Virus record (IMG/VR): IMGVR_UViG_3300035114_000005
Location: 1 to 46,560 of that record
Length of the DNA: 46,560 nt
From: a virus
Reading direction: 5' to 3' (one strand)
In this document: positions 3,610 to 28,356 of the stretch, in pieces
How the letters are laid out: each line of letters starts with the position of its first letter
Position numbering within the stretch: the stretch's first letter is position 1
Position numbers and translations under genes: made by a program
The notes under the pieces: generated by a model
Seen by the model: only the letters and a program-made list of their open reading frames with translations
Databases searched by the model: none
Told to the model about the DNA's origin: nothing

Positions 3610-3757
3610 AGTAGTATTTCCGAAAACATAAAAACAATGTAAGGCTGACCATGTAAGGCGAGGTGGGTTACATGCCAAAACGCTTAAGAGCATCCTATTT
3701 CAAAATAATACTACTACTTTCTTACATTGTCTTACATTTGGCCGATTTGGTAATGAT

Positions 3758-7909: not shown

Positions 7910-10070
7910 TGACGATCGGGACGAAACCAGTGAGGACGTTCCTGCCAAGGAACCGGAACCGCGGGCCAAAGACATTTCCAAGCGCGCCGGTGTGCGCAAG
8001 CAGCTGCTGGAACTCTTCGCCGAAGTCGAGGCCGGGTTCCAGGATCAGTCCGAGCGCGCTGACGACCAGCAGGACTTCTGGGACGTCTACAACTGCAAGC
8101 TGACCGGCAAGCAGTTCTACGATGGCAACTCCCAGATCTTCGTTCCCATCGTCCACAACGCCGTCAATGCCCGCAAGACCCGGTTCACCAACCAGATTTT
8201 CCCGACCAATGGCCGCAACGTCGAGGTGGTGTCCCAGGATGGCGAGCTGCCTTATGCCACCATGTCGCTGCTGGAGCACTACATCCACAAGGCTCAGCTA
8301 CGCACCCAGGTGATGCCGGCCCTGGTGCGCAATGGTGACATCGAGGGTCAGTACAACATCTATGTCAGCTGGGAGAAGCGTGAGCGCCATGTCACTTGGA
8401 AGACCACTGAGGCGCCGGCGATGGAAGGTTCTGAGGAGCCCAACCCGGCCGCGGAGCCGGTTGCGACCATCAAGCACGAGACCATTACTGATAGCTATCC
8501 TTGCGTCGAGGTCTTAAAGGATGCTGATGTTCTTGTTTTGCCCCAGACGGCGGACAGCATTCAGGACGCGATCTCGTCAGGCGGTTCGGTCACCATCATC
8601 CGGCGCTGGACCAAGGCCAAGGTTCGCGCAATGATTCGCGACAAGATGATTCGTGAGGACGCCGGCGAGGCGTTGATCGGAATGATGTCGACCGAGGCCA
8701 AGGAGCCGGGCAAGAAGGTTCACCTCGAGGCTGCGGGCATTAAACATGAGGGCGGCTTGGCGTTCGCGCTGGTCTATCAGACCTGGTCGGAGTTGAAGGT
8801 CAAGGGTGAACGGCGGGTGTGCGAAGCCTTTTACGGAGGCGAACAACAGGTGCTCGGCGCGCGGCGCAACCCGTTGTGGTCGGACAAGGTGCCGGTCCTG
8901 AGCGTACCGGTGGAGAAGGTAGCGGGGGCGTTCAAGGGCATCTCAAAGGTGAAGCCATGCTGCGACATCCAGTATTTTGCAAACGACGCCGTGAACGAAG
9001 CCGCCGACTCTGCAGCCTACGCCTTGCTGCCGATCGTGATGACCGATCCGCAGAAGAATCCGCGGGTAGGTTCCATGGTCTTGTCCCTGGCGGCCGTGTG
9101 GGAGACTTCGCCACAGGACACCCAATTCGCCCAATTCCCGCAGCTATGGCAGCACGGGTTCGAGATGGTAGCTGCGGCGAAGGCGGAGATTGGCCAGACC
9201 CTCTCGGTGTCTCCCGCGGCTATTACGGGTGGTGGAGCCTCAAGTAAATCCAAGCCGTCGCAGGCCGAGGTGGCGCAGGAGCAGCAGATCGATATCCTCA
9301 ACACCGCGGACGCAGTGACTACGATCGAGCAGGGGGTGCTGACGCCGCTGCTCGAGCTGTTCGTCGAGATGGATCACCAGTACCGTGACGACGACATCAT
9401 GGTGAAACAATACGGCAAGATGGGTCTGGAGGCCCAGATGGAAGCAGTGCCGCCGACCCAGTTCGATACCCGCTACACCTACAAATGGTTCGGCGTCGAG
9501 CAGGCGCGCTCAGCCCAGCAGATCCAGCAGCAGATCGCCATGGTCAACGTGCTGCGCGGCATCCCGCCGCAGCAGATGAACGGCTACAAGTTGAACATCG
9601 CCCCGCTGGCGGTGCAGCTGGCAGAGAACGCCTTCGGCCCGCGGCTGGCGCCGCAGATCCTGGTCTCACCGGAGCAGCAGATGCCGGTGCCGGTCGACCA
9701 GGAGAACACGCTGTTGCTGTCAGGTTTCGAGGTGCCAACGCACGAGATGGACGATGACGCGCAGCACATCAAGGCGCATGCGCTGATCCTGCAGGATGCG
9801 GAAGGGAAGAACGCGCCGAACGCCAAGAAGACTCAGGCGCACATCTTCGCCCACATGCAGCAGATGCAGTTGAAGCAACAGGCACAGGTGCAGGCGGGGC
9901 AGGGCGCACCGGGCATTCCCGGCGGCGCCATGGGTGGTGAGCCGCAGCCGGGCGTTGCCGGCACACCGCGACAAGGGGCACAACCGGCGCAAGCCACCGG
10001 TGGGCAGGGACCACCGGGTATGATCCCGCACGATCAGCTGAAAGATCCCTCCGTGCCACCGAGGCTATGA
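7869..10070 (+). CDS. Portal protein (733 aa)
   Basis: Large acidic-N-terminal protein directly after terminase, the usual place for the portal. Residues about 55-120 (F-Q-D-Q-S-E-R-A-D-D-Q-Q-D-F-W-D-V-Y, then V-P-I-V-H-N-A-V-N-A-R-K-T-R-F-T-N-Q-I-F) look like the clip/wing part of podovirus portals. Length is close to the P22 portal (725 aa). The C terminus (about 655-733) is rich in Gln, Gly and Pro and probably flexible. It forms the dodecameric ring at one capsid vertex, through which DNA enters and leaves. Assigned by position, size and sequence character. Confidence 0.88.
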   Translation: MAEDTSRQESAADDDDRDETSEDVPAKEPEPRAKDISKRAGVRKQLLELFAEVEAGFQDQSERADDQQDFWDVYNCKLTGKQFYDGNSQIFVPIVHNAVNARKTRFTNQIFPTNGRNVEVVSQDGELPYATMSLLEHYIHKAQLRTQVMPALVRNGDIEGQYNIYVSWEKRERHVTWKTTEAPAMEGSEEPNPAAEPVATIKHETITDSYPCVEVLKDADVLVLPQTADSIQDAISSGGSVTIIRRWTKAKVRAMIRDKMIREDAGEALIGMMSTEAKEPGKKVHLEAAGIKHEGGLAFALVYQTWSELKVKGERRVCEAFYGGEQQVLGARRNPLWSDKVPVLSVPVEKVAGAFKGISKVKPCCDIQYFANDAVNEAADSAAYALLPIVMTDPQKNPRVGSMVLSLAAVWETSPQDTQFAQFPQLWQHGFEMVAAAKAEIGQTLSVSPAAITGGGASSKSKPSQAEVAQEQQIDILNTADAVTTIEQGVLTPLLELFVEMDHQYRDDDIMVKQYGKMGLEAQMEAVPPTQFDTRYTYKWFGVEQARSAQQIQQQIAMVNVLRGIPPQQMNGYKLNIAPLAVQLAENAFGPRLAPQILVSPEQQMPVPVDQENTLLLSGFEVPTHEMDDDAQHIKAHALILQDAEGKNAPNAKKTQAHIFAHMQQMQLKQQAQVQAGQGAPGIPGGAMGGEPQPGVAGTPRQGAQPAQATGGQGPPGMIPHDQLKDPSVPPRL

Positions 10071-11110
10071 CCATGAAAAATTTAGCTGCGCGTCTATTGC
10101 TAGCCTTTCTTTTTCTGGCGCCTCTACCGGCACTGGCGCAGAACGGTAACCGGATCGTAGCCGACTGCACCACGGGTGTGCCGTTGCCCTATGGGCTGGG
10201 GTCGACGTCAATTCCGACGGCGTTGCCGACTGGAGCCGCTTGCGTCGTCGCGTCAGTCTCGGCGTCGATCACGGGCTTCCCGACGGTACAGTCCACCGGC
10301 ACCCCGATCTCGGTGACGACGTCGAGCTCGACCGGGACGCTGCCGACCGGAACCGTGGTTGTTGCCAGCAACGTTGGTGCCACCAACGGCGCTTACTGCA
10401 AGCTCGGCGCAACGGCTACCGTCAACGACCAGCTGATCCCGCCGAATTCATGGTTCGCGTTTACGGTTGGCGGCAACACGCAGTTGAGCTGCATCACTTC
10501 GACGTCGACCACAACCGTCAATATGGTCGGTGGCTCGGGCCTGCCAACGGGTTCCGGTGGAGGCGGCGGAGCAGGCGGAGGCGGCGGAGCTGTCACCGTT
10601 GCCGATGGCGCCGACGTCACGCAGGGCGCAAAGGCAGATGCTTCTTGCGGTACAGCCACCGGCACTTGCTCGATTGCGGCCCTGATCAAATTCCTCAACA
10701 CGGCGGCCACGGCCGCGACGCCTGCAGGTACCAATACGATCGGCACGACGGGATCGCTGCCCTATCCCGTCGGAGCTGTCCCATATACCGCAACGGCTAC
10801 CGGCACCACAGCGGCAACGACAGCAACTCTAGCGGGGGCGGCGTCCGTCACCACCTACATCTGCGGCTTCTCGATTCGGGCCAATGCTACGGCGGCGGCT
10901 ACAGGCAACGCCACGGTGACTGGCGTGATCACGGCCACGATGAATTTCACTCAGTGGACCGCTCCTCTCGCGTCGGGCCTCGGTATTACCGAGATGATCT
11001 TCTCGCCGTGCATTCCAGCCTCCGCCACCAACACATCGATAGCGGTTGTGTCGGCAGCGCCAGGCTCTGGAGGGACTGTTTCAGTTTCAGCTTGGGGGTA
11101 TAAGCTGTGA
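10067..11110 (+). CDS. Exported-type Gly/Thr-rich virion protein (347 aa)
   Basis: ATG 10067 overlaps the portal stop (ATGA). The N terminus has a classic Sec signal: K-N-L-A-A-R, a hydrophobic core L-L-L-A-F-L-F-L-A, and an A-L-A cleavage site before Gln (about residue 25). The mature part is Thr/Ser/Ala-rich beta sequence with a Gly run near 163-175 (G-S-G-G-G-G-G-A-G-G-G-G-G) that may be a hinge. The C terminus resembles a fibre head. It begins a block of five export-signal proteins ending at 17971. Probable adsorption structure or decoration; the signal peptide is unusual for a virion part. Confidence 0.75.
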   Translation: MTMKNLAARLLLAFLFLAPLPALAQNGNRIVADCTTGVPLPYGLGSTSIPTALPTGAACVVASVSASITGFPTVQSTGTPISVTTSSSTGTLPTGTVVVASNVGATNGAYCKLGATATVNDQLIPPNSWFAFTVGGNTQLSCITSTSTTTVNMVGGSGLPTGSGGGGGAGGGGGAVTVADGADVTQGAKADASCGTATGTCSIAALIKFLNTAATAATPAGTNTIGTTGSLPYPVGAVPYTATATGTTAATTATLAGAASVTTYICGFSIRANATAAATGNATVTGVITATMNFTQWTAPLASGLGITEMIFSPCIPASATNTSIAVVSAAPGSGGTVSVSAWGYKL

Positions 11111-11928
11111 GCCTGATCAAGCCGTCTCGGCGGCTATTCCTTGTGCGGGCTGCCCTTGCAGCTCCCGCACTGATCACCTGTCCAAAGCTGTTAGAGGCTG
11201 GGTGGCAGTCGCGTGACTCGAATTACAATCAGAATATCGCGGCGGGTGGCTCGCTCGGCCTCCAGACCAACCTCGGCTCCTTCTTCAGCCTCGACAACAC
11301 GCTGGCTGACGCAACCGGCTCCGTCACCAACCTGACGAACAACAACACGGTGACGTTCGTCACCACAGCCGCGACCAGCGGTCCTTCCGCCAACACTAAC
11401 TGCGCAAATTTCGTTACAGCGTCGTCCCAGTATTTGAGCCATGCCGATGCAACGGGCATCAACGTGGCTGCAATCGACTTTTCGCTTCAAGTTTGGTTTC
11501 GCAGCACTGCTAGCACCATGTTTTTCGCATCCAAGGCAACGGGTGGCTTCGGATCGCGCGAGTATCAACTATCGTACGGATTTGGAACGGGCTCTTCAAA
11601 TCCGATCACCTTTGACGCAAACAACGGGACCACCCTTACTTCAGGTAACGTCACGAATAGCGCTTGGCATCATATGGTGATCACCAGAAACAACGCGACT
11701 AACGCGCAGATCATGTACATTGACGGGTCTTCTTTTGCGTCCAATACGGGAAGCTCAGACCCAGCAGGTACAAGCCAATTGAACATCGGAGCCGATCCCG
11801 CCCCTGGTACTTTTTGGGGCGGGCAACTTTGTATGTTCGGCACGTGGCGAAACCGCATCCTTTCAGCCGGTGATGTGACGTTGCTCTACAACAGCGGCAA
11901 CGGCCTATCTTACGCAGCGATGGCGTAA
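11107..11928 (+). CDS. LamG/ConA-lectin-like protein with Tat-like signal (273 aa)
   Basis: GTG start at 11107 overlaps the previous stop. The N terminus has S-R-R-L-F-L-V (residues 7-13) followed by a hydrophobic stretch A-A-L-A-A-P-A-L-I, matching the twin-arginine export consensus S-R-R-x-F-L-K at six positions. Residues about 60-268 show the LamG/concanavalin-like jelly-roll pattern: F-S-L-Q-V-W-F-R, W-H-H-M-V-I-T-R, I-M-Y-I-D-G, L-N-I-G, then F-G-T-W-R-N-R-I-L-S. Such domains bind carbohydrate or protein. Likely a surface-binding component of the adsorption set. Cofactor-free substrates rarely need Tat, so a folded export route would be notable. Confidence 0.8.
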   Translation: MSLIKPSRRLFLVRAALAAPALITCPKLLEAGWQSRDSNYNQNIAAGGSLGLQTNLGSFFSLDNTLADATGSVTNLTNNNTVTFVTTAATSGPSANTNCANFVTASSQYLSHADATGINVAAIDFSLQVWFRSTASTMFFASKATGGFGSREYQLSYGFGTGSSNPITFDANNGTTLTSGNVTNSAWHHMVITRNNATNAQIMYIDGSSFASNTGSSDPAGTSQLNIGADPAPGTFWGGQLCMFGTWRNRILSAGDVTLLYNSGNGLSYAAMA

Positions 11929-11929
11929 C

Positions 11930-14062
11930 ATGCGTACGCTGCTTGCCCTCATTCTGGCGCTATATGTCGGGGCTGCTGAGGCTCATGTCAGCGCGGTGCC
12001 GTCCCCTGGGGTCGGCAGCCTTAGCGATGTGGTCGAGGCCCGTTTCCCTCGCGGTACGCCCAATCAGATCACCTGCAATCTCGTCACCGGCGTTGCCAGT
12101 GTTGGGGGGCCCTGCACGTCAGGCGCTACCTGCAACGGCGTTGCCGATGCCGCTCCTGCATTCTGGGCTTTCCGCACATGGGCGCTTGCTAACCAAGGAT
12201 CCAGCAGTCTAGTCGTCCTCACGGTCCCTCCCGGCAGCGACTGCTTATTCAACACCAATGCGGGCACGGTCGGCGGCAGGCTTGCCGGTGTTCAAAATAC
12301 GTTCGTCGCGGGTATCAATAATCTCAGGGTTGAAGGTACCGGGGCGATCTTGCGTGCCGGTGCCGCAGGCTACTGGCTCGGCACCGGGGGCGTCTGCCAA
12401 GTCGGCCTGACGTCCGTAAGTGGTTGCTCTGCGCGCATTCAGACGGCAAACCCAAGCGATGGCGTGGTGACGCTAACCGCGGCGTCGCTCGCCGCCGGCT
12501 ACGTCAGCCGCTTCAATAGCGGCGACTGGATTATGGTCGGCGGCCTCGACGTCCAAGGGCAGTATAACTATGCCTGCGGCTACCCGCCGAACCCAACCTA
12601 TTTCGAATGGCGGCAGATCACGAACGTCAATGCTGGAACTGGAGTGCTCACGCTCGACCGGCCGCTGACCAAGACGTTCCTTTCCACATGGCCGAATTAC
12701 AATTCTGGCTCGCCTCCAGGTGTATCGCCCGGAACGGGCTGCAGCAACACGGAGGCGGACAACGGCGGTCCTGCCACGATTTGGACGGTGGGTGCTGGTG
12801 TTGCCAACAGCTCTTGGAATACCACCCTCGAATACGTCGGGTTGACTTTCTATCAAAGCGGCCAGCTCTACGCGAACGGGCGCAATGTCACCTATCGCAA
12901 CGTCACGTTCCCCGCCGGCACCGGCCTCGGCGCGATCCCGACGCAGAACGAGACTTTTACCGCATACAATACGACGTGGAATGCCGTCATCGAAGTAGAC
13001 AAGATGATCGGCACGTTCACGCTGGACAATTCGTCGCTGACATTGCTCCAGTTCCAAAGCAACAGCGTTGATCTATTCATAGCTCGAAATGGAACGACGT
13101 TTTCCAGCGGCCTACAAGGTGGGGGTAAGCGGTCTGAGCTGACAGATGTGTCGCTAGGCGACTACCGCCCAGGCTCGTACTCGTACGGCAACACACAGAC
13201 CGTGATCTGCACTCGCTGCAACGTGACGACGTGGCAGAACGGCGGCATACTCCAGAACGACGTTGCCGGAACATATTCCATGGCCAGCGGCGTCATTTCG
13301 TTCGCGAACACCGCTGCAACTGGGAGCGGGCCGTCGCAGCGCTGGGCTTCAACCATCGGTAAAACCATCTGGTTTTCTGCCAGCGGTTTTGGCAGTCTCG
13401 GCCAATTCACTGTATTGGGTATCACGCAAGACCCAACTAATACTTACGTTCAAACTGACACTGCGGGGGGGTTCCCGAATTTTGCCACGCTTGGCGGCGG
13501 CACTGCCCCGCAGTTCACGACCAACGGCGCGCAACAATTCACTTGCGACGCTTGTACTGGAGATGCCAGCTTTACGGCAATGAACGTACAGGCCGGCGCG
13601 ACGCCACTGACCCCGATGATGACCAGTTCTAGTCGGGTCTTTACGCCGTCAACGGCTCCCACTTCCCTAGGCAGCCTCTTCGGCATTGGGAAGCTGACGA
13701 GCCTAACTATTGATGTGACGACGGCCTTTGCCGGTACCGGAACAGCGACCCTCAACCCAACTGGACAGTTTCATAACTTCACGATCAACCAATCGACATG
13801 GACGCAGTTCGATTGGTTCCCGACAATCAATTTGAAACAAGCTGGGAAGCGCGTCATCTCGTCGGGAGGCGTGACTTGTGACACGGGTGGCGGCCCCGTG
13901 GGAGGCGCATGTTCGGGCGACACGATCAACAGTACAAACGGTTTCCCACCGAATGCTGTGTGGGTGCAATCTGCACTGGCTCCGTGGACTGGCGGTAACT
14001 TCAGCGGCATGACGACGCCCCCGCAATTCACAATTACCATCAAGACGGACCAAACACCATGA
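11930..14062 (+). CDS. Tailspike-like beta-helix protein with signal peptide (710 aa)
   Basis: ATG 11930 lies one base after the previous stop. The Sec-like signal is R-T-L-L-A-L-I-L-A-L-Y-V, cleaved after A-E-A (about residue 18). A-R-F-P-R-G-T-P follows at 37-44 and recurs just after the signal of the next gene. The body has beta-helix character: D-A-A-P-A-F-W-A-F-R-T-W-A near the start and repeated strands with N-L-R-V-E-G-T-G-A-I, as in pectate-lyase-like phage tailspikes. These usually bind or cleave surface polysaccharide. No catalytic residues can be assigned with confidence. Confidence 0.78.
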   Translation: MRTLLALILALYVGAAEAHVSAVPSPGVGSLSDVVEARFPRGTPNQITCNLVTGVASVGGPCTSGATCNGVADAAPAFWAFRTWALANQGSSSLVVLTVPPGSDCLFNTNAGTVGGRLAGVQNTFVAGINNLRVEGTGAILRAGAAGYWLGTGGVCQVGLTSVSGCSARIQTANPSDGVVTLTAASLAAGYVSRFNSGDWIMVGGLDVQGQYNYACGYPPNPTYFEWRQITNVNAGTGVLTLDRPLTKTFLSTWPNYNSGSPPGVSPGTGCSNTEADNGGPATIWTVGAGVANSSWNTTLEYVGLTFYQSGQLYANGRNVTYRNVTFPAGTGLGAIPTQNETFTAYNTTWNAVIEVDKMIGTFTLDNSSLTLLQFQSNSVDLFIARNGTTFSSGLQGGGKRSELTDVSLGDYRPGSYSYGNTQTVICTRCNVTTWQNGGILQNDVAGTYSMASGVISFANTAATGSGPSQRWASTIGKTIWFSASGFGSLGQFTVLGITQDPTNTYVQTDTAGGFPNFATLGGGTAPQFTTNGAQQFTCDACTGDASFTAMNVQAGATPLTPMMTSSSRVFTPSTAPTSLGSLFGIGKLTSLTIDVTTAFAGTGTATLNPTGQFHNFTINQSTWTQFDWFPTINLKQAGKRVISSGGVTCDTGGGPVGGACSGDTINSTNGFPPNAVWVQSALAPWTGGNFSGMTTPPQFTITIKTDQTP

Positions 14063-16653
14063 AGCGCTTTGTTGCAGCGATCCTGACGCTTGTTTCGCTG
14101 TGCTGGGCGATAGATGCGGGAGCGAGATTCCCGCGGGGCACGCCGACCGCGTCCAATCTAAATTTGCTACAGGAGAACATCTTCGGTCTGACCGGCTCCG
14201 CATGGCAGACTCCAAGTGGCTACTACGCGCCCGGGGTTGGCAGCCCGGCTGTCAGCACAGCGGACTATTATCATCTCAACGGAATGTCATGGGCGCGCTT
14301 CTATGATCTGACAGCCACAGCATGTGGGTCGGCTGGCGCATCAATTGCGGCTGCCAACGGCAGGTATTTGTTTGTCACGGCACCGGATCACCCCGGCGGA
14401 AATTATAATTTCAACGGCGGTTATGATTTTCGTATTGGTTTCAGCAACGATCCAGGCGTGCTGCCGTCTACACTAAGGAACATATACTCTGGCGCAGTCA
14501 CTGCGGCTGCGCAGATCGCCAGCTTTACCGGCACAATATCGGGCACGACGCTTACCGTGGCGTCGATTTCCGGGTATCTGACGTTCGACAACCACGCAAC
14601 TTTGACCGGCGCGGGGGTGACAGCGAACACTTCCATAACGGCTCAATTGACCGGAACAGAAGGCGGTAACGGCACCTATACCGTCAACAATTCGCAGTCA
14701 GTCGGCCCGGTAGCGATGACTGCAGTACAGACCAACTATAGTATTTATCAAAATCCATTCTTTGTCTGCAATCCAGATGATGCCTCGTTTCCGTTTTATC
14801 TGTACGCAGAGGGCTCGGCGTCCGGCATTCAACACGAAGAAGGCGTAATCAAATCGGCCGACCTCATAACATGGACGTCGCCGCAACCAACGCACATCAC
14901 GCCGACATTTGGCAGTTGGTCAAGCTACCAGCGTCCGGTGCGCGATGGTGCCAATTCGTGGCATTCGACAGGCTTTGAGGTAGGGTATTTCCTAAACGGT
15001 AACGTCTTTGCGCGGTCTAAGTGGATAAGCACGGATGGTTTAAAATGGTCTCCGGCGTCGACAACGATCAATTCTTGCCTCCCAACTTCCGCCCAATCGC
15101 CAGCTGGGTCGACCAGTTGTGCTGGCACTAACGTACTTGCTGTTGGGGCGGAGGCCGCCCCGGATACGGTGACTATTGGCGCCACTGCGTGGCAGATAGG
15201 AAAATTCGACACGTTCACGGGCGGTGTCCGCGTTGGCTCGCAGTGGGTAGGCAGGGCTCCCATTGACGCGAATTTCAACAATCTCAACAGCCCGGCGCAA
15301 GTTAACGTCTCCGCAGCATACGGGGGCGTGTATCCCGGTCCGGGTTATTTGCAGGCAGCGTCTGCATTCATTGAGGACGGCATAGCCCACTATTGGGGGC
15401 TAACCGGGTTCTTCCCTAGCAGTTCGCTTTTTGGTCTGGTAGACGCCGCCACATACGCCAATGGTGGGGGTCTCTGGCAGCAAGGTCTCGATTATTATAC
15501 GGAGATTATTGACAGCAGCGCTGCAGCTACGGCTGCGCCGATCGGCGTCAAAGCAACCTGCGCCAGTTCCGTCGCGTCTCTGACTTGGTTCAACGCCCTG
15601 CCGCAACAGACCTATCGCCTATACCGGGGGACGACAGCCGGAACGCAGGCGACCTTGGTCGGCGACTTCACAGGTACGAGCGCCACCGATAGTGGCATGA
15701 CGTTGAACGCGGTGACCTATTATAAGCTGGTGTACCTCCAAAGCGGCGTCGAACAGAAAAACCGGGTCGTCAGCACTTGGTGTTCAAGCGATTCCGCATT
15801 CGTCAACGCGCATTATACCCGCGCTTCGGCAGGCGGTGCGGATATGACCACCTGCAATCGAACGATGATTAATGCGTTCGATGCATGGCTTGTCTCTAAC
15901 AGCCTCTCCAACAATCTGCTCTTTGCCACGATGCCCGATTTCTGCGTCGCCAAAAGTGGCAGCGTCATCACCAAAATATTCGATATGGGGACGACGCGGC
16001 TACCGCGCGGCGGAGACTACACACCTCTAACATCTGGGACTACCTACAGTGCGACCGGCATAAGCAGCAAGCCGGCATGGCTCAATGCTGCGAACACGGA
16101 TGGAGGCTACTACGGCGGAGGTCCTCAGGGGCTCAACAACATCCGCCGCAAGACGCAGATCACGGTTTTTGCTGCTTATCAAAAGCCTGGAACAGCGCAA
16201 GCAAGTGCATTCGTCATAAATCAGTTTGGCGCTCGCATGATGCTGACCCATACGGCCGGGACGCCGGGGGCTGTGAATTTTCTCTTGGCTGACGCGACGC
16301 AGCAGAAGACCGCTACGGCGACCCTTTCTTCGGCTACGGCCTTTAATTCGATGGCTGGTACGTTTGATGGCACCACGGCGATTGCTTATGGAAATGCTGT
16401 AGCGGGAAGCGGGCAGACCGGGCTTGTCATCCCCAGCCCAAACCTAAATCCACCAGATGTTCTGACCGGCGATGTGGGGTTTGCGAGCCTCATACCGGTC
16501 CTGATGTCAGGTACGGATTCTGGTCTCTACAATTCTAGTACAGCGTCGTACGGTGGTGCCAATCAGGCGCTCTACAATGGCCGCGCTCAGATGGTCTTCG
16601 ACAAGGCCCTTTCCGGGGCTCAGATCACGTCCCTCGATGCACTCGTACGGTAG
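14059..16653 (+). CDS. Multi-domain adsorption protein with signal peptide (864 aa)
   Basis: ATG 14059 overlaps the previous stop. The signal ([14 protein letters not shown]) is followed at once by A-R-F-P-R-G-T-P (22-29), shared with the upstream tailspike. Residues about 60-480 resemble a beta-propeller of the glycosidase type (Y-L-Y-A-E-G, then S-A-D-L-I-T-W-T-S and S-T-D-G-L-K-W-S), interrupted at about 153-222 by a small repeat module ([10 protein letters not shown] ... [10 protein letters not shown]) common in phage fibres. A fibronectin-III-like domain lies at about 492-575 and a LamG-like domain at the C terminus. Probable receptor-binding or glycan-processing spike; the enzymatic activity is unproven. 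Confidence 0.75.
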
Positions 16654-16663
16654 GAGCAGTACC

Positions 16664-17971
16664 ATGAAACGCATCCTGTTAGCCCTCGCGTTGCTCCTGC
16701 CGGTTCACGCGCACGCGCAGACTACCAAGGCAGCGCTCGTCACCGAGATCAACACCAACCTCGCCAGCGGGCAGTCTGGTGGCATCACAGCGCTGCAGCT
16801 GCGCACCACCATGCTCGACGTGGTCAACTCGATCATGCCGACGGCGCCGGTGGTGACGGGCAATTTCGCCTGCTTCAACGGCACCACGGGGCTGCTGCAG
16901 GATTGCGTCAAGGTGCCTCCGGCCGGAGCTGTCGTCGGCACCACCGATTCGCAGGTGCTTACCAACAAGACAATTTCCGGCGCGAGCAACACGCTGACCG
17001 TTCGGCTGGCAAATGACGTCACGGGTAACCTGCCGGTCACCAACCTCAACAGTGGCACCAGCGCGTCGGCGGCGACCTTCTGGCGCGGCGATGGATCGTG
17101 GGCAACGCCCGCGGGAGGTGGTAACGTAAATGTCAGCGGCACTGCTACGGTTGGGGATTTGATCCAGGCCACGAACGCGACAGCCACAACGGTCGTCAGC
17201 ACTGGCTACAGCGCCACCCAGATCCCCGGACTGATCCCGACGACGTCGACCGTGACGATCACCAATGCCTCACCGGGTATTGTGTCGTGGACCTCGCATG
17301 GCCTGACAGTCGGCACCGTTGTGTTCTTCTGCACTACGGGCGCACTGCCGACCGGCTTGACGGCGTGCGTGCCGGGTATTGGCCCGGCGCTCTCAGCGAA
17401 CACCTATATGTCGAACCCGACGCTTTACTATGTTTGCTCGGGCGCGACGCTCCTCACAAACAGTTTTGCCGTCGCCACTTCGATGGCGAATGCCAAGGCC
17501 GGTACCTGCCTCAACACGTCTTCCGCTGGCTCCGGCACGCACACAGCGTTCGCCAACGCGATGGCCTGTGCGGGCTGCATCGGGGAACTGATCTGGAACA
17601 CTGTTGTTTCGGGCGCCCCGGTGAACATAGTGACCACCGGCGTCAGCCAGGTATGGCAGAGCATCACGGTTCCGGCGGGGATCTGGGAGCTGGGTGGCAA
17701 CACTTCGGTCATCGGCACCAGCGGCACCACGGTGTTCACGCACATGCATGCCGGCATTGTGTACGGGTTCAGCAGCACGCCTACTGCGCCGTTCAACGGG
17801 AGCACAGCAGCGCATATCACGTCCAATTCCCCGAACGGTTGGGTCTTGCCCAACACGACAGAAATTGCGCCATTGTTCGGCAGCACGACGGTGAATGCTG
17901 TCGTCAATTCTGATTTCAGCGGCGGCGCAGCAGGTGCTTACGGAAGGACGTGGGCTAGACGAGTCAAATAG
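16664..17971 (+). CDS. Tail-fibre-like protein with signal peptide (435 aa)
   Basis: ATG 16664 follows TAGGAG; longer in-frame starts (16553) would overlap the previous gene. The Sec signal is [17 protein letters not shown], cleaved before Gln-Thr. The mature part starts with a short helical region ([13 protein letters not shown]) then the [13 protein letters not shown] motif typical of phage tail-fibre shafts, and [11 protein letters not shown]. The rest is beta-rich with many Thr and Ala residues. Last of the five-gene export-signal block before the lysis cassette. Confidence 0.78.
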
Positions 17972-17985
17972 AAAGGGAGAACGAC

Positions 17986-18471
17986 ATGCCTACTTGGCCG
18001 AAGGATACGATGCAGGCAAAGATTGCCTTCTACGGCGATCCGCGGGGCCCGCACGGGGTCAACGAGACCTGGTTCTCGAACAACGTGGTTCGGGTAGTGC
18101 CACCTTGGAAGATGACCTACGCGGGCAAGCCGATCGCCTCGATCGCTTTCCACAAGAAGTGCGCGCCGGCGCTCACAGCAGCCCTCAACGATATCTGGGA
18201 AGCCTGCGAGCATGACCAGAGCACGATCAAGAAGAACGGTCTTGACGAGTACGGCGGCTCATTTAATTACCGACTGATTCGCGGGCGGTCCGAGTTGTCG
18301 AATCATTCCTTCGCCATTGCCATCGACATCGCTCCGACAGGCAACGAATTAGGTAAGAAGGTAGGGAAGATGCCCGCCTTCGCCGTCAAGGCGTTCAAGG
18401 ATCAGGGGTTCCGGTGGGGTGGCGACTACAAAGGTCGCAAGGATTGGATGCACTTCGAGGCGGTTAGCTAG
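17986..18471 (+). CDS. Endolysin, M15-family peptidase (161 aa)
   Basis: The zinc-peptidase motifs of the VanY/M15 family are clear: S-N-H-S-F-A-I-A-I-D-I gives the S-x-H-x(6)-D signature (His107, Asp114), and D-W-M-H-F-E (153-158) supplies the second histidine (His156). Such enzymes cut peptide bonds in peptidoglycan stem peptides. There is no signal peptide, so it should accumulate in the cytoplasm and need the holin-like protein encoded next. Size matches single-domain phage endolysins. RBS is GAAAGGGAG before ATG 17986. Confidence 0.92.
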   Translation: MPTWPKDTMQAKIAFYGDPRGPHGVNETWFSNNVVRVVPPWKMTYAGKPIASIAFHKKCAPALTAALNDIWEACEHDQSTIKKNGLDEYGGSFNYRLIRGRSELSNHSFAIAIDIAPTGNELGKKVGKMPAFAVKAFKDQGFRWGGDYKGRKDWMHFEAVS

Positions 18472-18499
18472 TTGTAATTGTGGCAGAAGCCGCGTAACA

Positions 18500-18513
18500 A
18501 TGTTGCGCAACAT
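18500..18513. promoter_or_regulatory. 14-bp perfect palindrome before the holin-like gene
   Basis: ATGTTGCGCAACAT is a perfect palindrome, followed by AG and the ribosome site AAAGGGTG. A related element, ATGTTCCGCCTAACATAG, lies in the putative promoter at 20360-20388; the flanks also match (CCGCGT upstream in both). It could be an operator or a divergent promoter copy lacking the -35. Confidence 0.45.
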
Positions 18514-18527
18514 AGAAAGGGTGACCT

Positions 18528-18869
18528 ATGAACGATATTAACCTCAAAGCCATTTTGACCCCCCTCTTTGGGCTTGCAGCGACATGGTTGGCTACCAAAC
18601 TTAATTTTCTGGGCATTGACCAAGCTACCTGGACCACGATGGTGTCGGCAGCTGGTTTTGGCATTGTGGCTGCAGTACTCGGCCTGTTCACCAAGACATC
18701 CAACGTACTCGACACCGCCGGTGCCCAGCCGGGCACGACGGTGGTGACCACGAAGTTGATGGCAGACTCGCTTCCTAACAACAATGACGTGATCGCGGTG
18801 ACCCCGCAGATCGCCAATGCGATCGCCAACGCCACGCCACCGTCGCCGAACGCCGTTCCAAAAACGTGA
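18528..18869 (+). CDS. Holin-like membrane protein (113 aa)
   Basis: Directly after the endolysin. Two hydrophobic segments (about residues 8-27: A-I-L-T-P-L-F-G-L-A-A-T-W-L-A, and 34-54: M-V-S-A-A-G-F-G-I-V-A-A-V-L-G-L) are followed by a polar tail rich in Asn, Pro and Thr. Size and topology suit a class II holin that would permeabilise the inner membrane and release the M15 endolysin. Assignment rests on position and topology, not on sequence similarity. Confidence 0.65.
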   Translation: MNDINLKAILTPLFGLAATWLATKLNFLGIDQATWTTMVSAAGFGIVAAVLGLFTKTSNVLDTAGAQPGTTVVTTKLMADSLPNNNDVIAVTPQIANAIANATPPSPNAVPKT

Positions 18870-19277: not shown

Positions 19278-19314
19278 TCTGAATTATACAGCGGGGGCGA
19301 CAGATTGGTGATAG

Positions 19315-20157: not shown

Positions 20158-20159
20158 AC

Positions 20160-20363: not shown

Positions 20364-20388
20364 CACAATGTTCCGCCTAACATAGTCT
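20360..20388 (+). promoter_or_regulatory. Putative late promoter 2 (scaffold-coat operon)
   Basis: TTGACA (20360-20365), 17 bases, TAGTCT (20383-20388). The extended block CGCGTTGACACA matches the one at 4784-4795 in 11 of 12 bases. The spacer contains ATGTT-CCGCCT-AACAT, related to the palindrome at 18500. Start expected near 20395, just before the triple-hairpin leader. Confidence 0.5.
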
Positions 20389-20404
20389 GCGCGCAATTAA
20401 GTTT

Positions 20405-20476
20405 CGACTTGCTGCCGTAAGCAGCTGCCGACTTGCACCCGGAAGGTGCTGCCGACTAGTGGCCGTAAGCCCACCG
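20405..20476 (+). repeat. Three tandem 24-bp hairpin units in the scaffold leader
   Basis: Units at 20405-20428, 20429-20452 and 20453-20476 each start CGACT and fold: GCTGC-CGTAA-GCAGC (20411-20425), GCACC-CGGAA-GGTGC (20435-20449), and GTGGCC-GTAA-GCCCAC (20459-20474, one C-C mismatch). Stems differ but both arms change together, and all loops contain GNAA. The array ends one base before the scaffold ribosome site AAGGAG, so in the mRNA it is positioned to control translation, stability or packaging. Confidence 0.75.
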
Positions 20477-20488
20477 AAGGAGAGTAGA

Positions 20489-21253: not shown

Positions 21254-21274
21254 GGCAACGCACTACGCGTTGCC
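21254..21274 (+). other. Hairpin between scaffold and coat genes
   Basis: GGCAACGC-ACTAC-GCGTTGCC (8-bp stem, 5-base loop) followed by ATTTTA, 20 bases before the coat start. It could act as a partial terminator or as a processing/stability element that raises coat over scaffold expression. Confidence 0.6.
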
Positions 21275-21293
21275 ATTTTAGGAGACGACTGGA

Positions 21294-22646: not shown

Positions 22647-22657
22647 CGAACAATCCG

Positions 22658-22684
22658 GCGGGGCTTCGGCCCCGCTTCTCTCTT
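22658..22684 (+). terminator. Intrinsic terminator after the coat gene
   Basis: GCGGGGC-TTCG-GCCCCGC (22658-22675), a 7-bp GC stem with a stable UUCG loop, followed by TTCTCTCTTT. The T tract is interrupted, so it probably terminates part of the transcripts and lets the tail genes be read at a lower level. Confidence 0.75.
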
Positions 22685-22700
22685 TCAGGGATCTGATCCT

Positions 22701-22997
22701 ATGGCGCTGATCACGGGCGGCACTACCGGCACCACTGTCCTGAACGGGATGGCGTGGAACCCCTCCAAGCTTCAGGCAGACATCGCGGCGATCAACAACG
22801 CCATCAAGTACCAGATCAACCCCGCGCATCCGATCTTCCCGGGCGGCTTGATCAACGGCATCGTCGATTTCCCGGATCGCCTCGGGCAGATCAACCTGTT
22901 GCCCGGTGACTACGTTTTCTACGACAGCTTCGGCTGGCCGATCGTCGTGTCGCGCGAATCAATCGCGGCCGGCGGCACCAGCTGGGCGCACTCCTGA
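22701..22997 (+). CDS. Hypothetical small structural-region protein (98 aa)
   Basis: ATG 22701. A soluble beta-rich product with no charge bias; recognisable segments include I-T-G-G-T-T-G-T-T-V-L-N-G-M-A-W-N-P and L-L-P-G-D-Y-V-F-Y-D-S-F-G-W-P. It lies between coat and neck genes, so it may be a head decoration or head-closure protein. No family recognised. Confidence 0.7.
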   Translation: MALITGGTTGTTVLNGMAWNPSKLQADIAAINNAIKYQINPAHPIFPGGLINGIVDFPDRLGQINLLPGDYVFYDSFGWPIVVSRESIAAGGTSWAHS

Positions 22998-23008
22998 AGG
23001 GGGACTAC

Positions 23009-23455
23009 ATGGCTGACGACAAGAAGACCAAGGGTCCGCAAAAGCCCAAGGCGATCGTGGACACCTCCATCATCGGAGAGGAGCGAATCAAGGCGCTGCG
23101 CCTCAAGGCCAAGAACAAGATCGACGCCGAGCGCACCAAGGCCGCCGAAGAGAAGATGCTCGAGGAGTTCGAGAACGAGGAGCGCCAGGCTGGCGGCCTC
23201 GACGAGCCCATGGTGGACGTCTACATCGACTTCGCCCCTTACGCCGATCGCGCCATGATCGACGGCGTGATCTACTTCGCCGGCCAGACCAAGACGGTGC
23301 GCGAGAGCGTGGCTCTCCTCTTGCAGGAGATGATGTCGGCCACCTGGAAGCACCAGTCGATTGTTGACGGCAAGCCCGAGGACTTCTACCGTCAGGGTCG
23401 CGGCACCAGGGTCGCAGCCAATGGAGGGGTTTCTTCCAATATATTGAGGGCTTAA
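23009..23455 (+). CDS. Hypothetical charged structural-region protein (148 aa)
   Basis: ATG 23009 after AAGGGGGA. The N-terminal third is basic and helical (I-K-A-L-R-L-K-A-K-N-K-I-D-A-E-R-T-K-A-A-E), the second half globular (V-D-V-Y-I-D-F-A-P-Y-A-D-R-A-M-I-D-G). Often found in this position in related uncultured podovirus genomes, without assigned function. Its stop abuts the next ATG. Confidence 0.7.
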   Translation: MADDKKTKGPQKPKAIVDTSIIGEERIKALRLKAKNKIDAERTKAAEEKMLEEFENEERQAGGLDEPMVDVYIDFAPYADRAMIDGVIYFAGQTKTVRESVALLLQEMMSATWKHQSIVDGKPEDFYRQGRGTRVAANGGVSSNILRA

Positions 23456-23917
23456 ATGGACGATTTGAAAGGGGAAACGGCGCCGGCGCTTGGCATCTCG
23501 ATCAATGCGCAGGTGGCGGCAGCACGCCAGATTACGATGCAGAGCTTCATCGATCGCGACGCCTCCGGGGCCGAGATCGACAAGCTACTGGACAAGCTGA
23601 ACGCTTCGCTGGATCGGCAGGTGGCGTTCTACGAGATCGAGGAAGAAGAGAAGCGGATCGAAGTCGACAGGAACGTGCTGACGAATGTCAGCAAGCGGCT
23701 TGCCGAAGTCGAAGACAACATCCGCCTCAAGGCTGGATCTGCGGAGGGGCGGCGCAACCCGCTCAAGCTGTCCACGCAGGAAGAGGTGCAGAAGAAGCAG
23801 GCGTACGATAGCCTCGAGGAGGCCAAGCGGCGCGTAGCGGTCGGCGAAGCTCGGCTGGTCGAGCTGAGAAAGAAGGCAGGCAACCGGGATGTCGCTTCAA
23901 GCCCAGCAGATCGTTAG
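23456..23917 (+). CDS. Coiled-coil structural-region protein (153 aa)
   Basis: ATG 23456 immediately follows the previous stop. The middle and C-terminal parts are one long charged helix (Y-E-I-E-E-E-E-K-R-I-E-V-D-R-N-V-L, then Y-D-S-L-E-E-A-K-R-R-V-A). It overlaps the next gene by 29 bases. Could be an assembly chaperone or internal protein; no family recognised. Confidence 0.7.
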   Translation: MDDLKGETAPALGISINAQVAAARQITMQSFIDRDASGAEIDKLLDKLNASLDRQVAFYEIEEEEKRIEVDRNVLTNVSKRLAEVEDNIRLKAGSAEGRRNPLKLSTQEEVQKKQAYDSLEEAKRRVAVGEARLVELRKKAGNRDVASSPADR

Positions 23918-24629
23918 CCTCGCCTGTCAGATCGCCAAGTGCCCCGGCTACGTCGTTCAGGCGGGGCAGTTTCTCAACAACGCCCTGCAGACGCTTGCGC
24001 AAGACTATGACTTCATGGTCATCCGCAAGACGTTCAATTTCAACTTCAACACCTCCGCAACCGGTAACGGGTACGTCGCCGGTTGCGGCCCCAATCTGAT
24101 GCCGACGGACTTTTTGCGCGCACACCGCAACGGCGCGTTCTACACGATCAACGGTGTGCCCTACACCATGATCGGTTATGAGCAGGCGGAGTTCGATCGT
24201 TTCGTCCAACAGGCAGGCAACGCGGCTTATCCTTCTGCCTTCTATGTGGACGTCTCCAAGACCCCGATGGAGCTTTACGTTTGGGTGCCGGCCGGTGGCG
24301 CCTATGCGGCGACGGTGCGCTACAACCCGCAGATGCCTGATATCACCACGCCGGAGACCAGCACCACGGTCCCCTGGTTCCCCAACAGCGACATCCTGAT
24401 CACTTATGTGGCAGGCTCGCTGATGAACATCACCGACGATGCCCGCGCGCCGTCGTTCCTTGGCGAGCCGGACAACGCGCCCAACGGCTATAAGGCGCAG
24501 CTGCGCAGCTACCTGAAGATGAAGGACGACCCCGAGAGCGCGGGCGTCAAGACTGTGAAACTGGACCGCCGCCTGTTCGGCCAGACGTCATGGTCGCATT
24601 TGAAGAACACCAAGACGATCGGGTGGTGA
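23889..24629 (+). CDS. Tail adaptor / tubular-A-like protein (246 aa)
   Basis: The pattern fits the podovirus head-tail adaptor family: an N-terminal helical pair (I-V-S-L-A-C-Q-I-A-K-C-P-G, F-L-N-N-A-L-Q-T-L-A-Q-D-Y-D-F), a beta part with Y-T-I-N-G-V-P-Y, then a helical C-terminal part (L-I-T-Y-V-A-G-S-L-M-N-I-T-D-D-A-R, S-Y-L-K-M-K-D-D). Equivalent in role to T7 gp11 or P22 gp4, docking under the portal. The large nozzle gene follows directly, the usual order. Confidence 0.78.
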   Translation: MSLQAQQIVSLACQIAKCPGYVVQAGQFLNNALQTLAQDYDFMVIRKTFNFNFNTSATGNGYVAGCGPNLMPTDFLRAHRNGAFYTINGVPYTMIGYEQAEFDRFVQQAGNAAYPSAFYVDVSKTPMELYVWVPAGGAYAATVRYNPQMPDITTPETSTTVPWFPNSDILITYVAGSLMNITDDARAPSFLGEPDNAPNGYKAQLRSYLKMKDDPESAGVKTVKLDRRLFGQTSWSHLKNTKTIGW

Positions 24630-24632
24630 GTC

Positions 24633-26333
24633 GTGACCCTTCGCAACGGCACGCCGATCAAGTTCTCACCGGTGGGAGTATCGGACGCGCTTGATTCGTC
24701 CAATGTCTTCCCGGGCGCGATGGCGCAGCTGAGCAATTTGATCCCCGATCCCACCACCAAGAACCTGTGGCAGTGCCGGCCGGCGGCGATCGCGTTTGCA
24801 GACTTCGCCACGCAGGGCGGTGACTTCGATCCTGATGACTTTGGGCCCGACTTCTACACCGGCTTCAATCTGGGCGCGACTGGGGGCTTCATCTCGGCTC
24901 TGAAGATCGTGGGCGACCGTGTCTTCGGCATGATCGCCACGAGCCTCAACCCGGGTCACGACCAGCCATTTTGCTACGACCTGATCACTGGGGCGTTCGT
25001 CTTTATCAGTGGTGTCACATCTGCCAATACGCCGTTCAGCCCCACTACGTCGGGCGACTGGGTGCCCCCGACGATGGACCTGATCGGCGTCAACCTGGTG
25101 GTGACTCATCCCGGCTATACCGGCGCCGGCGGCATCATGTTCGGCTGGTTCAATATCTCCGATCCAAACGCCATCACTTGGAATGCGGGCAACACGGTTA
25201 CGACGTTGCTGCCGTGCCCGCCGACGGCGGTGAAGCAGTTTTTCAATCGCGCCTACTTCCTGGTCAACCCGCCAACTGGGCAGCCGGGGGCATACTTCAC
25301 CGATGTGCTGACGCTGACGATCACCGATCCGACCCACATCATCACCTTCAACGACAACGTCAAGCTGACGGCGATCGGCGCGCTGCCGTTGAACTCGCAG
25401 CTAACCGGCGGCACCATCCAGTCCCTGATCGTATTCAAGGGTGCCGCGCAGATGTGGCAGATCACGGGTGACGCCGCGATTGCCAGCAATCCACTTAGCG
25501 TCAACGCCATGAACGTGGCGACCGGGACCAATGCGCCATTGTCGATCGTGGCGACGTCCAAGGGACTTGCCTTCATCGCGCCGGACGGCCTGCGCGTGAT
25601 CATGTTCAATGGCACGATCTCCGACCCGATCGGGGATGCCGGCTCGGGCGTCACGCTGCCCTTCATCTTCGCCATTGCGCCTTCGCGCATCGCGGCGGCC
25701 TGCACGGCCAAGGTATTGCGAATCAGTGTGCAGAACGGTTTTGCAGTGGGGACACCGAATCAGGAGTGGTGGTACGACATCCCGCGCGGTTGCTGGAGTG
25801 GCCCGCATACCTTTCCGGCCTCGCAGATCCAGCCTTACAACAACACCTTCATCGAGGCGCCGATCGGCGTGCTCGGCAAGTTGTTCCAGTCTGACAGTGT
25901 GCAGGGCAACACGTCCACCTATGTCGAGAATGGCAACCAGATGTCATTCACCTGGGCAACGTCGATGCTGCCGTCGACGCAGCAGATGTCCGAGAACGCG
26001 ATGGTGGAGACCACGCTGAACATCGGCTTCCCCGACGGGCAGCAGGTCGCGATCTATGCGGTCGACGAGAACGGGGCAGTCTTCTCAAGCGTGGTGCTGG
26101 CGGCGACGATACCTTCGACTGTGTGGGGTTCCTTTGTCTGGGGGCAGGCGCTGTGGCAGGGTGCGTCAAACGCGCTCGCGCCGCGGCAGATGAAATGGCC
26201 TATACCGATCGTATTCCAGCGGCTGGCGATCATCGCGACGGGCAACTGCGCGCAGAACCTGAAGCTCGGCGATCTCTTCATGCGCTACCAGCAGCTGGGC
26301 TATCTCCTGCAACAAGACGCCAACGTGGCGTAG
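24633..26333 (+). CDS. Tail nozzle protein (tubular-B / P22 gp10-like) (566 aa)
   Basis: GTG start at 24633, three bases after the adaptor stop. Size and sequence (repeated short beta strands such as V-G-D-R-V-F-G-M-I, F-N-R-A-Y-F-L-V-N, L-A-F-I-A-P-D-G-L-R-V-I) suggest the beta-propeller nozzle that closes short tails. The early L-S-N-L-I-P-D-P and later W-Y-D-I-P-R-G-C-W-S segments fit such nozzles. No signal peptide, unlike its downstream neighbours. Assigned by position, length and fold pattern. Confidence 0.75.
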   Translation: MTLRNGTPIKFSPVGVSDALDSSNVFPGAMAQLSNLIPDPTTKNLWQCRPAAIAFADFATQGGDFDPDDFGPDFYTGFNLGATGGFISALKIVGDRVFGMIATSLNPGHDQPFCYDLITGAFVFISGVTSANTPFSPTTSGDWVPPTMDLIGVNLVVTHPGYTGAGGIMFGWFNISDPNAITWNAGNTVTTLLPCPPTAVKQFFNRAYFLVNPPTGQPGAYFTDVLTLTITDPTHIITFNDNVKLTAIGALPLNSQLTGGTIQSLIVFKGAAQMWQITGDAAIASNPLSVNAMNVATGTNAPLSIVATSKGLAFIAPDGLRVIMFNGTISDPIGDAGSGVTLPFIFAIAPSRIAAACTAKVLRISVQNGFAVGTPNQEWWYDIPRGCWSGPHTFPASQIQPYNNTFIEAPIGVLGKLFQSDSVQGNTSTYVENGNQMSFTWATSMLPSTQQMSENAMVETTLNIGFPDGQQVAIYAVDENGAVFSSVVLAATIPSTVWGSFVWGQALWQGASNALAPRQMKWPIPIVFQRLAIIATGNCAQNLKLGDLFMRYQQLGYLLQQDANVA

Positions 26334-26342
26334 GTGGGTAAA

Positions 26343-27791
26343 ATGAAAAAGTTGGCCTCTATACTGTTGATGTCGTTGGGGTTCCTGTGCGGGCCCGCCG
26401 CTGCCCAAATCGTCGGTACGTTGCCCTTCCAGCTGCAGAATGGCACCACGGCCGATGCCACCCAGGTGATGGCGGACTTCAACAAGATCCTGACCGACGT
26501 CAACGCCAACGCCGCCAAGAAGGGGATCAACACTGACATCACGGCGCTGATCGCGCTGACGACGCCGATCACGCCGGTACAGGGTGGCACGACGATTTAT
26601 TACGCCGCGACGTCCGGGGGCACGGCGAACGCCCAGACTGTGGCTACGCCCGCGCCGACAGGCTTTACGCTGGCGACCGGCAAGCGCGCAACCTTCGTGG
26701 CGGGCTTCACCAATACAGGCCCGATGACGCTGAACGTTAACTCGACTGGCGCTACCGCGGTGACGCGGATGACGCCGGCGGGGCCGGTCGCGCTGATCGG
26801 CGGCGAGGTGGTTGCCAACAACTACATCGAAGTGGTCTTTGACGGCACTCAGTTCCAGCTTTACACGGACGCTTCGACGCCGACGTTTGGCCCGCTGACG
26901 ACGATCGCCGCTAGTGGCACGGTCGATCTTGGCACGATATCCAGCCACAACGCTTTGATCAGCGGCACCACAACGGTCACTTCGTTTGGCTCCAGCGCGT
27001 TGACGACTTATCCGATCTACCGAATCAAGTTCGACAACGCCCTGACGCTGACGCACAACGGCACCAGTTTGATCCTGCCGGGCACGGCAAACATCGTAAC
27101 TGCAGCCAATGACACGGCTGTGGCGCAGTATCTCGGCAGCGGAAACTGGCTGGTCAGCAACTACTCCAAGGCCAATGGCGCGGCGGTCGCCAGTGCAGTG
27201 CCCACGCGGCAAGTCGTCACGACGGCGCAGGCTGGCACTTACACCACGCCGGCCAATGTGCGCTGGATACGCATCCGCCTGGTCGGCGGTGGAGGTGGAG
27301 GCGGTGGGGGTAACAATGGTGCGGTATCAACGGCAGGCAACAACTCCACCTTTAGCGGAGGCTCGCTGGTCGCAGGTGGTGGCGGGTTCGCAGGCACGGC
27401 GACGCAAGGTGCAGCTGGTTCTGCCAGTAACGGCAACATCATGAATATTGCAGGTGGCTCGGGTAACGGCTCCAACGGGTCGACCAATGGTTCAGGCGCC
27501 GGCGGCGGTAATTCGTGCCTGGGCGGTGCAGGTGGCGGCGGCCTTGCTGCCACGGGTGCGGGGCTTTCGGCGGCAGCTAACAGCGGTTCGGGTGGTGGTG
27601 GTGGCGCGTTCTCGGTGAACAGTGCGGGTGGCGGTGGCGCAGGTGGTTGCGTGGAGCATGTCATTACGTCACCAGCGGCCAGCTATACTTACGCGGTCGG
27701 TGCGGGTGGTGCTGGCGCTGCTGGCTCAGGTGGTGGGGGCAACGGGGGCAACGGGGCTACCGGCATCATGATCGTCGAGGAATACTACTGA
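26343..27791 (+). CDS. Tail fibre with signal peptide and polyglycine tip (482 aa)
   Basis: ATG 26343 follows TAGGTGGG; GTG 26334 is an in-frame alternative. The Sec-like signal is K-K-L-A-S-I-L-L-M-S-L-G-F-L, cleaved after A-A-A before Gln. The start of the mature part (L-P-F-Q-L-Q-N-G-T-T-A-D-A-T-Q-V-M-A-D-F-N) is typical of short tail fibres. Residues about 313-480 are extremely glycine-rich with repeated G-G-G-G-G blocks separated by short Ser/Ala/Asn loops, like the polyglycine-sandwich tips of gp38-type adhesins, so the loops may contact the receptor. Confidence 0.82.
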   Translation: MKKLASILLMSLGFLCGPAAAQIVGTLPFQLQNGTTADATQVMADFNKILTDVNANAAKKGINTDITALIALTTPITPVQGGTTIYYAATSGGTANAQTVATPAPTGFTLATGKRATFVAGFTNTGPMTLNVNSTGATAVTRMTPAGPVALIGGEVVANNYIEVVFDGTQFQLYTDASTPTFGPLTTIAASGTVDLGTISSHNALISGTTTVTSFGSSALTTYPIYRIKFDNALTLTHNGTSLILPGTANIVTAANDTAVAQYLGSGNWLVSNYSKANGAAVASAVPTRQVVTTAQAGTYTTPANVRWIRIRLVGGGGGGGGGNNGAVSTAGNNSTFSGGSLVAGGGGFAGTATQGAAGSASNGNIMNIAGGSGNGSNGSTNGSGAGGGNSCLGGAGGGGLAATGAGLSAAANSGSGGGGGAFSVNSAGGGGAGGCVEHVITSPAASYTYAVGAGGAGAAGSGGGGNGGNGATGIMIVEEYY

Positions 27792-27852
27792 TTGAGTTTT
27801 AAAGGGGAACTGTTAGTGTGAACCGCCCATGAGGGCCTTGAGGGAGACTACC

Positions 27853-28356
27853 ATGCTGAAACGAATCGCCTATGCCCTCACGGGCCTGATTTTCTCGGCC
27901 GTGCTGGCCATCGGCGCTACTATCCCGCTGCTGCCGTCGACCTCGCAATACAGCGAACCGTCGCAGATCGTTGGCACCATCAACGCGCTGATCCAACAGC
28001 TCAACGGACAGGCCGGCTATGCTACGGCCAACCCGGTTATCAGCATTGGCAGTTTCTGCTCGGTGTCTGGAACGGGTACCCAGATCTGCAACGGCCAGCG
28101 TGGGCAGGTTGCTTATACCAGCGGCATTACAATTGCTGCGACTGGCACCAACCAGACTTTTACCGTGACCAACAGCGCCGTGGCGGCCAACTCGTCATGC
28201 TCGGCGACGTGGAGCACGGCATTTACAGCTGGTTCAGCAGTCACGGTAGCCACCGTGGTCCCGACAGCGGGCTCCCTGTCCATCATTGGGGTCAATGCGG
28301 GCACCACCACCAATGCGGTGACCGCGGGTACACTCAGCTTCAATTGCTACAACTAG
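27853..28356 (+). CDS. Small fibre-like protein with signal peptide (167 aa)
   Basis: ATG 27853 follows AGGGAG. The Sec-like signal is K-R-I-A-Y-A-L-T-G-L-I-F-S-A-V-L-A-I-G-A. The mature domain has a short helix (I-V-G-T-I-N-A-L-I-Q-Q-L-N-G) resembling the start of the upstream fibre, followed by a Thr/Ala-rich beta domain with four cysteines (about 69, 78, 115 and 165) that may form disulfides after export. Probable fibre partner or tip protein. Confidence 0.72.
   Translation: MLKRIAYALTGLIFSAVLAIGATIPLLPSTSQYSEPSQIVGTINALIQQLNGQAGYATANPVISIGSFCSVSGTGTQICNGQRGQVAYTSGITIAATGTNQTFTVTNSAVAANSSCSATWSTAFTAGSAVTVATVVPTAGSLSIIGVNAGTTTNAVTAGTLSFNCYN

Follow-up and report, generated by a model that had tools for sequence, protein, structure and literature searches.

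The window examined here, the whole 46.6-kb stretch of virus record IMGVR_UViG_3300035114_000005 (46,560 nucleotides), carries seven genes of the tail fibre and spike class whose products begin with export signals of the general secretory (Sec) or twin-arginine (Tat) type. In gene order, TerL (phrog_38) and the portal are followed by five of these signal-bearing genes, an M15 endolysin and a holin-like gene; then come the scaffold, the major capsid protein, an SU10-type adaptor (PF24175), a nozzle-like protein and the other two signal-bearing genes. A GNAT acetyltransferase, internal proteins and, finally, minus-strand replication genes make up the end part. In the textbook account, the assembly of tailed phages is wholly cytoplasmic. 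The seven genes are as follows.

10067..11110, plus strand: Sec-type signal and a 323-residue mature fibre-like protein with 8 Cys; its start shares an ATGA with the portal stop at 10070
11107..11928, plus strand: Tat-like signal (SRRLFL) and a LamG/concanavalin-A-like domain (PF13385, E 4e-14)
11930..14062, plus strand: Sec-type signal and a 14-Cys protein, whose N-terminal region recalls pectate-lyase-3/tailspike beta-helices by eye only
14059..16653, plus strand: Sec-type signal and a multidomain protein with 8 Cys in the mature part, Fn3-like at 489-569 (3mpc, E 1.5e-4)
16664..17971, plus strand: Sec-type signal and a fibre protein with the FWRGDGSW motif and 8 Cys
26343..27791, plus strand: Sec-type signal and the post-nozzle tail fibre, with module LPFQLQNGTTADATQVMADFN and then a Gly-rich tip (phrog_416 minor tail, phrog_863)
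27853..28356, plus strand: Sec-type signal and a small fibre-like protein with 4 Cys; signal-bearing orthologs in related loci L015/L139, L045, L079, L123 and L130

Signals were scored by a home-made method that combines a hydrophobic core, a basic n-region and a von Heijne cleavage matrix. All seven fibre-class genes scored positive, six as Sec-like and 11107 alone as Tat-like, versus 1 of the 30 other window genes (38624, weak). The first-pass annotation had proposed seven exported proteins, and this holds; each N-terminus was found where that annotation had placed it. A basic n-region, a hydrophobic core and an A-x-A-like site are present in six of the seven, and 27853 has a weaker site, A-x-G. 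The predicted signals end at MTMKNLAARLLLAFLFLAPLPALA/Q in 10067, MRTLLALILALYVGAAEA/H in 11930 (the scorer cut lies 3 residues earlier), MKKLASILLMSLGFLCGPAAA/Q in 26343 (1 residue earlier) and MLKRIAYALTGLIFSAVLAIG/A in 27853. The N-terminus of 11107, MSLIKPSRRLFLVRAALAAPALIT, contains SRRLFL, which fits the S/T-R-R-x-F-L motif before a hydrophobic core; its cleavage site is ambiguous, with Cys25 close by. Mature cysteine counts are 8, 14, 8, 8, 2 and 4 in the other six proteins, and the count for 11107 hangs on that uncertain site. At 10067, 11107 and 14059 there is a 4-nucleotide overlap between the start and the stop of the preceding gene, 11930 starts 2 nucleotides after the upstream stop, and 26343 and 16664 start about 10 nucleotides after theirs; 26343 and 27853 also have a G-rich stretch resembling a ribosome site.

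Signals recur, in the same class of genes, across related phages. Relatives were collected by capsid protein, and the first 80 have 70-99% capsid-protein identity to the window; gene calls in the related loci (L numbers) are mechanical, and the relatives are phylogenetically linked. With best-of-starts scoring applied alike to both sets, the scorer was positive for 296 of 1913 called genes in these loci, versus 160 of 4024 overlapping shadow open reading frames (ORFs). In this soil podovirus-like group, the fibre-region genes of most relatives carry signals, five of them Tat-like (window 11107 and genes in L009, L042, L064 and L104), and the post-nozzle gene is also signal-bearing in two uncultured phages with a capsid protein just 27-29% identical. 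No signal was found in portal (0/44), scaffold (0/51), adaptor (0/54), GNAT (0/15) or internal proteins (0/46), and few in the major capsid protein (2/73) or nozzle (2/55). But for these few exceptions, coat, portal, adaptor, nozzle and internal proteins lack signals as had been claimed, the per-class counts support confinement of the signals to the adsorption class, and the conservation in related genomes that was to be checked is widespread. Three relatives (L089, L095 and L096) come from assemblies binned as Elusimicrobia, Eremiobacterota and Micrarchaeota, which probably reflects binning errors.

Locus L274, from an unrelated phage, carries a homolog of 11930 with 83% identity from residue 36 onward; this homology begins just past the signal region, and each homolog has a separate signal. 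Adjoining it is a 14059 homolog (61% identity); a direct search for relatives of 14059 returned none. This signal-bearing cassette sits by a different terminase type (Terminase_3), a context which suggests that the fibre cassette may have been transferred between phage lineages.

A natural comparison is offered by the post-nozzle fibre gene, which has a conserved N-terminal module, LPFxLxNGTTADAxQVMANFN. Its orthologs either bear a signal or begin directly with the module, at the predicted mature N-terminus, as in signal-less L029, MTTIIGTLPFQLQNG, versus the window's ...CGPAAA/QIVGTLPFQLQNG. Of 131 module genes, signal-bearing and signal-less alike, 126 have a nozzle homolog immediately upstream. 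A pair of cysteines, one just N-terminal of the module and the other about 25 residues inside it, follows the signal. In the curated table, the 87 signal-bearing forms have both cysteines in 68 cases and neither in 19 (the window's included), never a single one, while the 42 signal-less forms have both in none, neither in 37 and a single one in 5 (Fisher 1.8e-19). Total cysteine counts are even in 67 of 74 signal-bearing versus 8 of 27 signal-less forms. L063/L130 and L138, which are nested, lack the signal and both cysteines, and their near relatives have all three. Mapped onto the nozzle tree, the signal shows at least 8 changes; of 6 independent contrasts, 5-6 have the pair moving with the signal and none has it moving against (p 0.03-0.06), and cysteine parity alone gives p 0.125. 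All 34 near-full-length records have one strong module copy, with an extra weak match in three, and no second, signal-less copy for virion use was found in them. Internal starts that would yield a cytoplasmic form were rejected as rare, alternative starts bypassing the signal being present in 2 of 86.

The association extends to the whole gene set. Cysteine counts were even in 161 of 178 non-redundant signal-bearing proteins (90%) versus 366 of 849 others (43%) and, by homology cluster, in 52 of 61 versus 136 of 319 (Fisher p 4e-10). Mature cysteines play no part in the signal score, and in lipoproteins the mature Cys at +1 was left out of the count. Composition alone was rejected as the source of this parity: just 45% of signal-less proteins of fibre-like composition are even. 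FWRGDGSW-motif fibres from diverse phages served as a control from outside the set; 65 of 70 are signal-less, with 0.19 Cys per 100 residues, and 27 of those 65 are closed and Cys-free, while the five signal-bearing fibres all have an even count. T4 gp12, too, has no export signal and few cysteines. In the C-terminal domain of Burkholderia phage BcepC6B gp19, two cysteines stand, by eye, at positions occupied by Phe and Ala in signal-less Pectobacterium fibres. These comparisons support a tie between signals and cysteine pairing, as expected of oxidative folding outside the cytoplasm.

Several results identify the proteins as fibres. Post-nozzle orthologs with and without signal match Collar PF07484 and many PHROGs tail-fibre families, and the S74 fibre chaperone occurs in another signal-bearing protein. 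The window's 26343 has no match to Collar PF07484 and ends in a Gly-rich tip; the gene follows the nozzle, has a conserved N-terminus and a variable C-terminus, and matches phrog_416/phrog_863 profiles (E 1e-4 to 7e-4). The model of a signal-bearing ortholog (mean predicted local distance difference test score, pLDDT, 75) gave significant PDB matches to a cyanophage tail fibre, a T4 baseplate complex, a Pseudomonas phage baseplate/fibre complex and the T4 short fibre. The 14059 model had a pLDDT of 28, and nothing is concluded from it. The 10067 product has no family match, and the 11930 product has none in a PDB sequence search, its likeness to WceF-type beta-helices being by eye only. No fibre gene without a signal is recognisable in the window.

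As a pointer to the host, the module was rejected: it is absent from the other 384 Alphaproteobacteria sampled, while 8 of 398 Burkholderiaceae and 6 of 398 Pseudomonadota have it, in part outside prophages. A similar module is found in secreted proteins encoded on bacterial chromosomes, apparently not by phages (L261, L262, L264, L265 and L267). Two of these, from Burkholderiaceae, combine a signal with both cysteines and are flanked by very large genes, one with YD-repeat-like sequence close by (contexts L268-L273).

We consider it highly probable, from the sequence covariation described above, that these proteins are tail fibres which evolution has fitted for export and oxidative folding. 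The fibre and spike proteins would be carried over the inner membrane by Sec, or by Tat in the case of the LamG protein, and lose their signal; they would then fold with disulfide bonds in the oxidising periplasm. Both steps are strongly supported, and in many relatives one disulfide of the post-nozzle fibre would lie within its N-terminal module. Fibreless capsids, complete with portal, adaptor and nozzle, might meanwhile assemble in the cytoplasm. When holin and endolysin break the envelope, particles could meet the stored periplasmic fibres and dock them through the N-terminal modules. P22 tailspikes can be added to finished particles in vitro. Since no signal-less fibre gene is recognisable and the place of the post-nozzle gene is kept with or without a signal, the fibres would join virions, most simply by mixing at lysis. 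The whole chain, up to loading at lysis, has in our estimate an even chance of being right. As a general scheme, assembly in two compartments (head and tail core in the cytoplasm, a whole adsorption apparatus that is Sec/Tat-exported, disulfide-bonded in the periplasm and joined at lysis, and a signal that is gained and lost as a module) falls just short of even and is proposed tentatively. Likely gains are disulfide-hardened fibres and the keeping of glycan-binding or glycan-cutting proteins from the cytoplasm.

The first-pass annotation held that the adsorption apparatus is exported before lysis, perhaps to block receptors, trim surface glycans or join virions. This is partly supported: the signals are real, conserved, class-restricted and cysteine-linked. 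Of the three roles, joining virions is favoured by the Collar domain and by single-copy orthologs, with and without signal, that follow the same nozzle gene. The main rival to it is that the proteins are exported yet never become virion parts, acting as free lectins, decoys or glycan-cutting enzymes, for instance to prevent superinfection by blocking receptors or to loosen capsule and biofilm ahead of release. The Pantoea enzyme WceF, a Tat-exported bacterial protein of tailspike fold that modifies exopolysaccharide, would be a model for such a role; the LamG and Fn3-like domains among the seven, the module common to chromosomal secreted proteins, and a signal-bearing esterase encoded by Xanthomonas phage PBR31 point the same way. 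Free secretion would, however, leave the window with no recognisable fibre gene. It also sits poorly with the single strong post-nozzle copy in 34 of 34 records, with a position and module kept regardless of signal, and with Collar and S74 domains, which are fibre hallmarks. We regard it as unlikely, although it is the most serious of the alternatives.

Incomplete export, with a cytoplasmic pool building virions as usual and an exported pool acting elsewhere, is less probable still. Signal-bearing and signal-less fibres do occur together in a prophage of Paraburkholderia tropica LMG 22274 (L094, with a fibre at 7147-8388) and in L087, and both kinds may have to end up on one particle; against dual targeting, cysteine pairing within the module indicates that selection acts on the oxidised form, and internal starts for a signal-less form are rare. 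It is very improbable that the hydrophobic N-terminus escapes cleavage and serves, in the virion or the inner membrane, to anchor the protein or to help assembly. The weaker site in 27853 and the anchor-like look of L242/L243 would suit it, but signal-less orthologs begin exactly past the hydrophobic segment, which a working fibre therefore does not need, cleavage sites are mostly of the A-x-A kind, and even cysteine counts would be left unexplained. Scarcely credible, and rejected by us, is an artefact of wrong start codons or chance hydrophobic stretches: the scorer does have a shadow-ORF background of about 4%, but the scores exceed it, starts and stops overlap by 4 nucleotides, the signals recur across the whole family, and cysteine parity in the mature part is a property outside the scorer.

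Several points nevertheless weigh against two-compartment assembly. Once ancestry is controlled, the link between signal and cysteines comes down to about six contrasts, and the signals were scored by a method of our own making. Cleavage, a periplasmic pool and incorporation into virions are predictions from sequence. The occurrence of the module in chromosomal secreted proteins means that it need not be a docking element. Sending virion parts to a compartment that virions do not enter before lysis would be costly, and we know of no precedent in tailed phages for virion parts delivered to such a compartment.

As fibres and spikes, the proteins themselves are of a familiar kind; it is the export route that is new. 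The post-nozzle orthologs resemble collar-type short fibres (PF07484; T4 gp12-like) in domain and predicted fold, and differ from them in signal and cysteine content, as the FWRGDGSW control illustrates. The window's adaptor is of the family found in the SU10-type short-tailed phages (Kuravirus); in SU10 the fibres sit on adaptor and nozzle, and the SU10 paper does not mention disulfides. WceF of Pantoea stewartii is a trimeric tailspike-like beta-helix protein with a Tat signal, but it is a bacterial biofilm enzyme and no phage or virion part. Signal-peptide and signal-arrest-release (SAR) endolysins (fOg44 Lys44, P1 Lyz) are products of tailed phages that likewise make use of the host's Sec machinery, but they are lysis enzymes rather than adsorption proteins. 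Also close are BcepC6B gp19 and PBR31 gp35, annotated as fibre or structural, with a strong Sec-type signal and even mature cysteines (4 and 2); the accessible literature on both holds no remark on export or virion proteomics. The description of the system as undescribed holds for the open literature searched, which contains no account of exported tail fibres in tailed phages and which excludes most subscription journals.

If two-compartment assembly is correct, a large group of soil phages would follow a different assembly logic with oxidised fibres, and a periplasmic fibre pool could block receptors or be shared by co-infecting phages. A signal together with even cysteines offers a simple sequence rule for finding such phages, and the result bears on recombinant fibre production, for which periplasmic, oxidising expression is indicated. 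Cultured phages with such fibres, through BcepC6B gp19 and PBR31 gp35, make export testable now.

Two further phages are of note. The tail fibre WAX24263 of Bradyrhizobium phage ppBdUSDA122-1 (L083, 13131-15728), annotated as such, has a signal and 18 cysteines; it differs from the window in belonging to a long-tailed type of genome with a tape measure gene. In Shewanella phage vB_Sb_QDWS (L356), an unannotated ORF with a Sec-type signal, from about 2967, continues into a hypothetical protein at 3754 that resembles the truncated beta-helix part of that ORF; an opposite-strand gene is annotated instead.

The neighbouring genes of the window include the following.

17986..18869, plus strand: lysis genes, M15 endolysin and holin-like gene
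23889..24629, plus strand: adaptor, no signal (Pfam SU10_adaptor PF24175, E 2.9e-8)
24633..26333, plus strand: nozzle-like protein, no signal, directly 5' of the post-nozzle fibre; named from gene order beside the SU10-type adaptor

The endolysin (17986-18471; PF13539, E 1.7e-15) has no signal, and 18528-18869 is a putative holin gene from its hydrophobicity and position. The phage collection contains no close isolate of the window phage; prophages of Paraburkholderia isolates have 55-61% identity to it. The GNAT acetyltransferase at 28415-28984 stands within the structural cassette, after the fibres and before the internal virion proteins, and has 15 homologs among related-locus genes; in Rhizobium phage RHph_N2, an N-acyltransferase follows the nozzle-position gene. 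On the minus strand, 35349-38201 encodes a DUF927 protein with a weak LigD primase-like region, and the same strand has SNF2 helicase and family A polymerase genes.

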